From Gammaproteobacteria bacterium Ga0077536 (lineage in GTDB: Bacteria > Pseudomonadota > Gammaproteobacteria > Ga0077536), in the NCBI GenBank assembly GCA_001464935.1, contig LNEL01000040.1, positions 1 to 64,000 on the forward strand: a DNA stretch of 64,000 nt. Reading direction: 5' to 3'. Shown piece by piece: positions 23,431 to 50,794 of this stretch (the stretch's first letter is position 1; every line of letters starts with the position of its first letter). The notes beneath the pieces are model-generated. The model did no database searches. It saw only the letters and a program-made list of their open reading frames with translations, and was not told the origin of the DNA. The position numbers and the translations under genes are program-made.

Positions 23431-23789
23431 GGGGACACCCACCGTTTGCGCCGCGCACCGCATTCGGGGACACCCATCGTGCGCATCGTTCGCACCGACG
23501 ACCTCCCGCAGCATGCAAGGGCACTAATCGGGCACTAATCGGGCACTAATCGGGGACACCCACCCCTTGGCCCGTCATCGGGGGAAATCAGCGACGCCCA
23601 TCTTTTGCGCTGACGACGTGACGCAGCTTGCAGCGACGCGCAATCGGCGCGCGCAATCGGGGACACCCATCGTTCCATCGCGATCGGGGACACCCATCGT
23701 TCCATCGTTCGCGCCGCCGACGTGCCGCAGCATGCAAACGGCTGCCCGCGCCCGGCTTGTCAGCGGCGCGTCCGCTGCGGTGGGTGTCC
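23431..23789. repeat. Cluster of GGGACACCCA repeats (5 exact forward copies plus a degenerate inverted copy) with local tandem duplications
   Basis: Exact GGGGACACCCA at 23431, 23466, 23552, 23659, 23686; 11-bp GGGCACTAATC x3 at 23519-23551; 25-bp direct repeat at 23656/23683; GTGCCGCAGCATGC at 23722-23735; GTGGGTGTCCG at 23780. Confidence 0.9.
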
Positions 23790-23934
23790 GGACCCTGGCG
23801 AACCGTCGGTCCCCGCCTTGGGGTTTGACGATCCACCATCCCGTTCGCGATATTGCGGAACGGCCGACGGCAGCGCGGCCTGCCCTTATCCCCCTCGATC
23901 GCACAACGGCGTGATGCGCCAGGAGAGCTCCGAC

Positions 23935-36222: not shown

Positions 36223-36307
36223 GATAGCAATCGGGGACGATAGCAATCGGGGACACCCACTTAACAATCGAAGCGTCAGCAATTAGGAAGCAATTAGGGA
36301 CACCCAC
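36223..36307. repeat. GGGACACCCA repeat cluster with 16-bp tandem duplication
   Basis: GATAGCAATCGGGGAC x2 (36223-36254); exact GGGACACCCAC copies at 36249-36260 and 36297-36307. Confidence 0.85.
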
Positions 36308-37327: not shown

Positions 37328-37373
37328 GGGAAATTCGGGAAATTCGGGGAAATTGGAAATTCGGGACACCCAC
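37328..37373 (+). repeat. GGGACACCCAC copy preceded by AAATTCGGG tandem units, left flank of the transposase gene
   Basis: GGGAAATTCGGGAAATTCGGGGAAATTGGAAATTCGGGACACCCAC. Confidence 0.85.
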
Positions 37374-37585: not shown

Positions 37586-38590
37586 CTATTCGTTGATGCG
37601 GCTATAGAGCCGTCGTGCTGCGGTCTGCCCCCGAATCCAGCGCCAGCCACACCGCGAAGCCAGGCTCTTGAGTCTATGCGGCGCGCCAATGAAGAGTCGG
37701 AAGCGCGTGTGCAACTCGGCGACGCTGTTCAGCCACTCTCCGGGCGACAGGCCAAGGCTTTCGAGCAGACGCGGCGTCGAGTCAGGTATAGCGCCTCGCT
37801 TGCGCAGGTGCACGGCGCGGCCACTCGAGTCCAGGAGGTCGAGATAGTCTTGAAGGTTGAACGGCAGGCCGGCATCTTCGCCCTGCCGCATCGCCCCGGC
37901 GAAGGGCCGCAAGGCAGGTTTGACGTTCCCGACGTCCGCTTTGGGTGTGGCGATGACTTCGTGCAACCGCTGCTGGCCGGACGTGAACTCGGACGTCTCG
38001 ATCGAGTCGGCTATCCCGGCCCGTACCGGGTTCAGATCGACATAGGCCATCACCGTCAACAGCGCCTCTTCATCGAGCAGCGCTTGCGACTTGAAGCGGC
38101 CTTCCCAGAAGCGCCCCGTGCAACCGTCTTCCTTGTTGGCGAGGCGGGCAATGAATTCATTGAGGCAACGCATGAACCAGCCCAGGTCCGTCAGGCGCCC
38201 CCGCCAGCGGGCAATGCAATCGGCAAGCAGGGCGGATTCGCTTGCGTCGAGCGTCGCGCCGTTCAGGTAGCTCGCGGCACAGGCAGGGCCCGTGTAGAGC
38301 TGGCGCCAGCGCTCGACGACCTCACGAGCCGTCCACTGGGCGGCTCGGCCCGGCGCGAGGCGCAGCACGAGGTGATAGTGATTGCTCATCAACGCATAGG
38401 CGCAGAGATCGATGGCGAAGACTTCGGTGAGCAACGCGAGTCGCTCGAGGATGCTGGCCTTGCGGTGCTCGAACGATCTACCGGAAGCGGGGTCGCGACC
38501 GCAGAGGAAAGCCTGGCGCACGCAGCGGCCGATGCAGTGGTAATAGGGCGTAACACTCGCGGACACGAGCGATGAACGGGCACGAGTCAT
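37586..38590 (-). mobile_element. IS200-like Y1/HUH transposase, REP-associated tyrosine transposase (RAYT) type
   Basis: PYYHCIGRCVRQAFLCG, ALMSNHYHLVLRL (HUH motif), FWEGRFKSQALLDEEALLTVMAYVDLNPVRAGI (catalytic Tyr region). Confidence 0.9.
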
Positions 38591-38669
38591 CCTTGTTTCT
38601 CCCGATAGACTGCCGGCGTCCTTGCCGACAACTCACACGCTAACGGGGCGAAGACATGCTTTCAATACG

Positions 38670-38736
38670 GTGGGTGTCCCAGTATTGGTCGGATTGGTCA
38701 TACGGTGGGTGTCCCAGGATGGTCCAGGATGGTCCA
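38670..38736 (-). repeat. Two inverted GTGGGTGTCCC copies with 10-bp tandem duplication, right flank of the transposase gene
   Basis: GTGGGTGTCCC at 38670-38680 and 38705-38715; CCAGGATGGT x2 from 38714. Confidence 0.85.
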
Positions 38737-46142: not shown

Positions 46143-46289
46143 GGGGACACCCATCGGGCGTAGTTCGGGGACACCCAACGTCCGGACCCGGGGACACCCA
46201 TCGTCCGGACCGCATGCTGCGGCACGGTGCGAATTTAATGAGTGGGTGTCCCTGAACTCTGAACTCTGAATTCAATGAGTGGGTGTCCC
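46143..46289. repeat. GGGACACCCA cluster: three forward then two inverted copies
   Basis: Forward at 46143, 46167, 46190; inverted GTGGGTGTCCC at 46242 and 46279; GCATGCTGCGGCAC at 46212-46225. Confidence 0.9.
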
Positions 46290-46773: not shown

Positions 46774-46997
46774 GGATGTGATCTCCAATCAGGAAGTGAG
46801 GGGGCGATTGCGCGAACTCCAGCGTCGCTCACCGCAGCGGGCGTGTCCGTGCGATGCCGAACAGGTGGGGTCGACATTTCCGATCCCGGATGATCTGTTG
46901 GAACCGGCGTTCATGTGCAGAGCGTGTGGCGCATCGATGCATGCTCCCGTATGACGCGTATGACGCGCCGGCTTGCGGCCCATCACGGCACCACAGC

Positions 46998-47008
46998 GTG
47001 GGTGTCCC
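46998..47008 (-). repeat. Inverted GTGGGTGTCCC copy
   Basis: GCGTGGGTGTCCCCC upstream of the LLM oxidoreductase gene. Confidence 0.7.
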
Positions 47009-47167
47009 CCAAAATCCGCCCCGAATCCACCTGAATCCGCGAACCCGGTAGTCGCATTCGCATTGCAACGCACCATTCGGTGCAGCTGGCGCAACGCTTG
47101 TCGTCAGACGGCGGAATCTGAATAATCCGGCCATCGCCCTCGCTTCCGGCCACGAAGGAGAACGCCG

Positions 47168-48397
47168 ATGAAAATTGCCTGCTTCCACCTGATGCCTTAC
47201 CGCGATCTCGAACCCGACTTCGAGAAGAAACACAAATCTGCGTGGTTCACCCTGCCGTTCGACGCAGTGGCCGACCGGCACAAGGTGTCGCAGTACTACA
47301 ACTGGACGCTCGATGAACTCGAGTTCGCCGCGAAGTCCGGTTTCGACGGTGTGTGTACCAACGAACATCACCAGAACGCCTATGGCTTCATGGTGAACCC
47401 GAACATGATGGGCGCAGCGCTCGCGCGCGCGACGCGCGGCACGAAGACCGCCATCATCCAGATGGGCGAGACGGCGGTGTTCCTGAATCCGCCGATTCGG
47501 GTCGCCGAAGAGTATGCGATGCTCGATGCGATCTCCGAAGGGCGCCTGGTGGCCGGCTTCCCGGTTGGCCTCGGCGGCGATTTCTCGTACAGCTACGGCA
47601 TGGCGCCGATCGAGCAGCGCCAGCGCTACAACGAGGCCCACGATTTGATCACACGCGCGTGGACGTCCTCGGAGCAGTTCGCGTTCAACGGCAAGTTCTA
47701 TCAGCTGCCGATGGTCAACATCTGGCCCAAGCCGGTGCAGCGTCCGCACCCGCCGATCTGGGTCCCGGGCAACGCGAGCCCGAGCACCTGGGACTTCGTG
47801 ACGAAGAACGACTACTCCTACTGTTACCTGACTTACTTCGGGGCCAAGGGCGCGGAGCACATGGTCAACGGCTACTGGGAGAAAGTCGAAGAGGCAGGCC
47901 GCGATCGCAATCCGTATCGCATGGGTTTCCTCATTCCGGTCGGCGTGTCCGATACCGACGAGAAGGCCGCGCAAGAGTATGGCCCGGCCGCCGAGTATTT
48001 CTACCACAAGGGTTTGCATCTGCCCGAGCAGCTGCTGCTGCCGCCCGGCCACATGACCCACGCGAGCCTCACGCACCTGCTGACCAAGCGACCCTTCCCG
48101 CCGTACGACGAGCTCAAGAAGATGAACTACGCGACGTTCAACGATCGCGACTTCGTGGTCTGCGGTTCGGCGCGGACCGTGACCGAGCGTCTGATCAATA
48201 TCGTCAAGACGCTGCGCGTCGGCCACCTGATGATCCTGCCGCAATTCGGCTCGCTGTCGCACCAGAAGACGATGGAGAACATCGAACGAATTTCGAAGAG
48301 CGTGCTGCCGCACCTGCGCCCGATCTGGGAGAACGAGGGTTGGGAAGACCGCTGGTGGCCGGAGGCCTGCAAGGCCGAACAACGCGCCGCGGCCTGA
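47168..48397 (+). CDS. LLM class flavin-dependent oxidoreductase
   Basis: MKIACFHLMPYRDL..., FDGVCTNEHHQNAYGFM, ISEGRLVAGFPVGLGGDF. Confidence 0.92.
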   Translation: MKIACFHLMPYRDLEPDFEKKHKSAWFTLPFDAVADRHKVSQYYNWTLDELEFAAKSGFDGVCTNEHHQNAYGFMVNPNMMGAALARATRGTKTAIIQMGETAVFLNPPIRVAEEYAMLDAISEGRLVAGFPVGLGGDFSYSYGMAPIEQRQRYNEAHDLITRAWTSSEQFAFNGKFYQLPMVNIWPKPVQRPHPPIWVPGNASPSTWDFVTKNDYSYCYLTYFGAKGAEHMVNGYWEKVEEAGRDRNPYRMGFLIPVGVSDTDEKAAQEYGPAAEYFYHKGLHLPEQLLLPPGHMTHASLTHLLTKRPFPPYDELKKMNYATFNDRDFVVCGSARTVTERLINIVKTLRVGHLMILPQFGSLSHQKTMENIERISKSVLPHLRPIWENEGWEDRWWPEACKAEQRAAA

Positions 48398-48417
48398 ACC
48401 GGAACGGAGGATCACGC

Positions 48418-50717: not shown

Positions 50718-50794
<77 letters not shown>

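Follow-up and report, generated by a model that had tools for sequence, protein, structure and literature searches.

A core repeat that brackets subclass 2.3-type Y1 transposase genes in gammaproteobacteria, and duplications of the DNA beside it

The 64-kb stretch of DNA analysed here (the window) contains many copies of a 10-base core, GGGACACCCA, some of them joined to a second conserved block, the tail. This arrangement raises the question of what kind of element the core and tail belong to, and which enzyme, if any, acts on them. The evidence indicates that the core is very probably the terminal inverted repeat (TIR) of a Y1/HUH transposase element.

Core, tail and composite unit

The window holds 15 exact copies of the core, and 20 matches with up to one mismatch against 3.15 expected; Table 1 lists cores together with the other features. 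Genome-wide there are 81 exact copies, compared with nine for the reversed control. They are mostly intergenic and occur singly, in pairs or in groups, with many unpaired. Three sets of core flanks were examined for base-pair covariation and showed none, which rules out an extended hairpin in the single core. In the open-access literature, the letters of the motif appear only in unrelated primers and genes. The single core at 46999 lies within an ORF (46829–48415, minus strand) that has no Pfam match and may not be a real gene; the sole Rfam match in the window is a tRNA gene (50721–50794).

Table 1. Repeats, duplications and transposase gene in the window
Position	Strand	Feature	Basis
23432–23441	+	Core (very probable TIR), GGGACACCCA	Exact match
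23467–23476	+	Core of unit with tail 23503–23516	Motif match
23503–23516	+	Tail variant CTCCCGCAGCATGC	2 mismatches to tail consensus
23519–23551	+	Triple tandem copy of GGGCACTAATC, ends at next core (23553)	Flank duplication
23553–23562	+	Core	Motif match
23618–23631	+	Tail variant GTGACGCAGCTTGC	Tail search
23660–23669	+	Core	Motif match
23687–23696	+	Core of best composite unit in the sequence-only reading	Motif match
23722–23735	+	Tail GTGCCGCAGCATGC, exact	Exact match
23781–23790	-	Inverted partner core of 23687	9/10 bases
36223–36248	+	GATAGCAATC-GGGGAC / GATAGCAATC before core 36250; first copy with only part of core	Flank duplication
36250–36259	+	Core	Motif match
36297–36306	+	Core	Motif match
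37363–37372	+	Very probable right-end TIR of transposase element (gene on minus strand)	Motif match
37586–38590	-	Predicted 334-aa Y1 HUH transposase (TnpA-Y1 subclass 2.3 type; NHYH, YVDLNP)	ORF comparison, profiles, alignment, structure model
38671–38680	-	Very probable left-end TIR, inner copy	Motif match
38706–38715	-	Very probable left-end TIR, outer copy	Motif match
38716–38735	-	AGGATGGTCC twice on + strand, outside left TIR 38706	Flank duplication
46144–46153	+	Core	Motif match
46168–46177	+	Core	Motif match
46191–46200	+	Core, one arm of inverted pair around tail	Motif match, folding
46212–46225	-	Tail	Exact reverse complement of 23722–23735
46243–46252	-	Core, other arm of inverted pair	Motif match, folding
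46280–46289	-	Core	Motif match
46999–47008	-	Single core, within ORF 46829–48415	Motif match

A sequence-only reading of the window had proposed a longer unit made of the core, the block TTCGCRCC, a variable spacer and a palindromic tail bearing GCATGC. The sequences it named are all in place: TTCGCACC at 23489, CCCGCAGCATGCAA at 23505, TTCGCGCC at 23708 and GGTGCGAA at 46226–46233, and the tail at 23722–23735 is the exact reverse complement of 46212–46225. Reading from GGGACACCCA towards the tail, core and tail stand in the same relative order at each locus. A composite of core, variable spacer and palindromic tail does exist and recurs, but the reading overlooked an inverted second core. In the usual order, GGGACACCCA is followed by 28–50 nt of variable sequence, GTGCYGCAGCATGC, a further 9–20 nt and TGGGTGTCCC, and most units carry this inverted core. 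TTCGCRCC is local to the two window loci and missing from most of the 19 core-adjacent tail sites; we rejected it as a general block. Within the tail, TGCYGCAGCA, a near-perfect palindrome, is the conserved heart, whereas the GCATGC end varies (ATGG, ATCG, GTGC). Folding as single-stranded DNA, suggested as a check, gave two outcomes: seven units with paired cores fold well compared with shuffles (z of -3.5 to -5.0), while 23687–23740, with one core only, does not (z +1.06).

The 14-mer tail (GTGCCGCAGCATGC; GTGCYGCAGCATGC) has 13 copies in the genome, against none for the reversed control. All 13 lie near a core: 11 have an exact core no more than 130 bp away, and the remaining two, on contig C20, are beside variant cores. 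Further core-adjacent tails, whose absence would speak against a longer unit, are thus present across the genome. A shorter 11-mer, CCGCAGCATGC, has 27 genome matches. Fourteen stretches in which it lies away from exact cores were examined, and most proved to be plain sequence with neither a preceding GTG nor a core; the exceptions are C20 and one stretch on C59 between GGGGACATCCA-type cores. Similarity between the tail and the right end of the window's transposase element is only loose (GCTGCTTGCaacaagaagTGGGTGTCCC).

The tail might instead be an independent repeat family that inserted near cores by chance. With up to two mismatches allowed, a tail is present in only 13 of the 42 core clusters, compared with about 3.5% of random segments; the 14-mer is absent from all eight congeneric genomes, with single matches in four other genera, and on contig C37 the cores around the tail face the opposite way. 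We nonetheless consider chance insertion improbable, given that each exact 14-mer has an exact or variant core close by and, as a rule, an inverted core 9–20 nt away on its other side. The tail is an optional, species-specific module and the core is the general element. The composite form, likewise species-specific, consists of two inverted cores ∼50–110 bp apart around the small hairpin block TGCYGCAGCA.

Pairing of the core with a Y1 transposase gene

An all-against-all comparison of the ORFs near cores in this genome and three relatives, made with no prior assumption, returned a single recurrent family. Its member in the window is bracketed by a plus-strand core on one side (37363) and two minus-strand cores on the other (38671 and 38706). 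Profile searches with the encoded protein gave a match to NCBIfam REP_Tyr_transpos at 3e-10, under the cut-off, and a sub-threshold match to Pfam Y1_Tnp. The protein contains the motifs LMSNHYHLVL (HuH motif, NHYH) and AYVDLNPVRAG (Y motif, YVDLNP), both of which are fully or almost fully conserved across 40 members of the family; H71, Y183, D185 and N187-P188 are invariant over all 40. An AlphaFold model (mean pLDDT 82.7) places several helices past the catalytic helix. Its best structural match in the PDB is the E. coli TnpA-REP/REP complex 4er8 (probability 1.00, E 1.4e-3, target TM 0.68), followed by the ISDra2 and IS608 transposases. A sequence search of the PDB found no significant match, with a weak one to an IS200-like transposase.

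These features agree with TnpA-Y1 subclass 2.3 as described by Quentin et al. 2018 (PMC6006769), in which the HuH and Y motifs are likewise NHYH and YVDLNP, the proteins are about 325 aa long (here 334 aa) with inserted regions and a long C-terminal part, and several diverged copies occur per genome, mainly in gammaproteobacteria. On the basis of motifs and length, we call the predicted transposase subclass 2.3-type.

A scan of GTDB genomes provided 80 relatives with 45–72% identity, from hosts that include Shewanella, Psychromonas, Photobacterium, Hahella, Zooshikella, Alcanivorax, Thiodiazotropha and other genera. When the ±400 bp around 56 such genes were searched with no motif given, GACACCCA emerged as the most frequent 8-mer. 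The flanks of 79 gammaproteobacterial genes contain GACA[CTG]CCA in strict orientation, with 107 plus-strand and two minus-strand matches upstream and one plus-strand and 81 minus-strand matches downstream, for a total of 191 against 4.0 in shuffles. The matches lie about 60–140 nt from the start codon and 180–300 nt from the stop codon. Inside the genes there are five matches in 80 kb (0.06 per kb), and farther away the density is about 0.3 per kb. Eleven of the 80 genes lack GACA[CTG]CCA in either flank, several of them having a diverged form.

The sixth base of the core (C, G or T) follows the enzyme tree, requiring 14 changes against 25.0 in shuffles, none of which reached so low a number in 500. 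All 16 members of the Shewanella–Photobacterium branch have G at this position. The gene is also present in every genome with a large expansion of the core (17–42 matches; Mann-Whitney p 0.003). Among 36 genomes of the family, four contain at least 17 copies of CGGGGACACCCA, and all four encode the gene. GGACA[CGT]CCA is thus a newly found cognate inverted repeat of subclass 2.3-type enzymes.

The core could instead be the binding site of a regulator or of a chromosome-organising protein, lying near the gene by chance. Cores are indeed mainly intergenic and some are paired. The strict inverted bracketing of the gene across many genera, together with the co-variation of core and enzyme tree, leaves this explanation hardly credible.

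Comparison of two genomes, G011 and G012, yielded no clean empty site. A gene copy in G012 is absent from G011, but the flanks differ at this site, making it at most a candidate insertion. On contig C45 of G012 (L051:319-1246), a ∼60-bp stretch ending in TGGGTGTCCC occurs twice within 1 kb, apparently representing the transposase element's right end alone, with no gene.

The canonical, Pfam-detected Y1 genes of the window's genome were considered as partners of the core and rejected: they adjoin other motifs, such as GGGGACAGATCTATTT, rather than this core. A second Y1 gene of the genome (L034, G000:C55:124109-127435) is bracketed by GGGGACAGATCTATTT-type repeats as a separate TIR family, and a further locus of the genome (L026) has one copy of a motif of this type. 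Directly before the start codon of the subclass 2.3-type gene, members of the window's genus carry a GC-rich inverted repeat of GGCAAGGACGCCGG type (window positions 38591–38640 and the 5′ flanks of L106–L108), which may serve translation control of the transposase. Other genera have different hairpins at this place. Three loci (L107, L111 and L112) come from public records titled ‘Klebsiella pneumoniae’ that are metagenome bins of the window's lineage. The titles look wrong, and the contig numbers or positions agree with G012, G020 and G006 from the window's own family.

Relation to known repeat–transposase systems

Elements of this general kind (TIRtrons and REPtrons) are already known. In the account of TIRtrons and their TIRYT transposases by Di Nocera et al. 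2013 (PMC3733652), a Y1 gene is bracketed by short inverted repeats, and repeats also occur singly, in pairs and in groups across the genome. The motif published there, GGGGWSAS, is matched by GGGGACAC, which has many copies in the window's genus; other genera share only GGACA. The tyrosine transposase section of that paper, for its part, makes no mention of anchored flank duplications (see next section). The 26 published TIRYTs fall in subclass 2.1 (20 proteins) or in 2.2 and 2.5 (the other six), and none was assigned to 2.3 (PMC6006769).

For subclass 2.3 itself, neither an automatic nor a manual search by Quentin et al. 2018 (PMC6006769) found REP-like sequences, and our search of the open-access literature found no later paper on its repeats. 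The proteins described here differ from the published subclass in having the cognate inverted repeat GGACA[CGT]CCA. Because no repeat had previously been linked to subclass 2.3 transposases, the repeat fills a published gap, in a subclass whose Y1 proteins are found often in gammaproteobacteria from marine and freshwater habitats. With orientation and distance now given, binding and cutting become directly testable.

IS200/IS605 elements (IS608, ISDra2) share the catalytic fold and single-strand cutting beside a recognised end. Typically, their copies are highly identical in sequence and have hairpin ends and tnpB, in contrast to the diverged copies (67–80% in one genome) and linear TIRs seen here. 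IS200/IS605 transposition takes place 3′ of a fixed target and produces no target duplication; the search here for a clean empty site, at which such events would be visible, found none.

A further comparison is with REPtrons, in which a RAYT mobilises REPs and REPINs as single-strand hairpins. Both systems combine an HUH/Y1 enzyme with short repeats spread over the genome as inverted pairs and tandem clusters. The nearest solved structure to the window's transposase is a REP transposase; inverted core pairs fold stably, and the seven paired-core units have the REPIN-like feature of two inverted repeats forming one hairpin unit; and REPIN clusters with repeated 5′ flanks occur in P. fluorescens (PMC3116915). 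Classical REP biology fits poorly, however, because the single core has neither paired flanks nor a GT[AG]G tetranucleotide foot, and no stem-loop of its own; subclass 2.3 proteins were, moreover, published as lacking REPs (PMC6006769). We therefore regard classical REP or REPIN elements as an unlikely identity for these units.

A TIRtron, in which the core is the TIR of a subclass 2.3-type Y1 element and the composites are its non-autonomous units, is in our view the likely overall explanation. The composite units, with inverted cores around a small hairpin, are probably MITE- or REPIN-like derivatives of this element that lack autonomy. Isolated cores, inverted pairs and core-tail composites would then be non-autonomous copies or remnants, with the enzyme acting in trans.

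Duplication of DNA next to the core

The DNA directly 5′ of the core is duplicated at 165 of 486 cores (34%), compared with 55 of 6000 random positions (0.9%). The left edge of the duplications falls mostly 8–12 nt before GGACA, with a median of -10 in three separate sets (this genome, three congeners and other genera). The right edge may lie anywhere from the start of the core onwards. When each locus contributes a single duplication, the left edge has an interquartile range of 3.3 and the right edge one of 10.0; part of the spread on the right stems from pairs of complete cores. In 49 of the 147 cases in which the first copy does not contain the whole core, it retains 3–7 nt of it. Left edges fall between -13 and -7 for 81% of duplications at cores and for 56% of the few random repeats, a test weakened by the minimum repeat length, which shapes the near edge. 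At related GGGG[AT]C motifs (GGGGTC-, GGGGACAGA-type) next to other Y1 genes, the left edge has the same offset. These anchored flank duplications are a new regularity, additional to the cognate repeat.

The HUH Y1 enzymes known so far cleave single-stranded DNA next to their recognition sequence, generating a 3′ OH and a 5′ phosphotyrosine (PMC8266576). A cut ∼10 nt before the core, followed by limited copying from the 3′ end and rejoining, would give a duplication whose start is fixed and whose end varies. The duplications thus suggest a cut position for the enzyme. We conjecture that the enzyme, once bound to a single-stranded core, makes a nick ∼10 nt 5′ of it. Synthesis from the free 3′ end would then run through the flank and for a variable distance into the core, and rejoining of the strands by the enzyme would leave the flank tandemly duplicated, either alone or together with the core. 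Repeated rounds over time could build hypervariable arrays. Such nicking, copying and rejoining by the transposase is a tentative proposal. More tentatively still, the Y1 transposase might act chiefly as an in-place duplication machine, nicking at a fixed distance 5′ of its core, leaving a polymerase to copy the flank and some of the core, resealing the strand, and so generating hypervariable intergenic arrays from an element that rarely moves.

Ordinary replication slippage at short repeats, with no part for a transposase, might also account for the duplications and arrays. Slippage is common at stalled forks and could yield similar pictures, and the arrays are tandem and fast-changing: in G011 and G012, which share about 96% identity in the surrounding sequence, the arrays at the same positions are quite different. 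Slippage would not readily anchor duplications on one side, ∼10 nt from the core, in unrelated flanks and several genera, and the downstream flanks of cores in the window's genome are duplicated far less often. We judge it somewhat unlikely, yet a serious rival.

Whatever their origin, the duplications offer a route to study how bacterial REP-like arrays grow, a question that REPINs raise too. Dense intergenic arrays with 11–15 cores per stretch occur in genome G007 (L039:7796-8475, L037:7655-8204 and L040:7647-8099), where each core has locally repeated flanks, e.g., GGCATTCG and GGGAATTCG.
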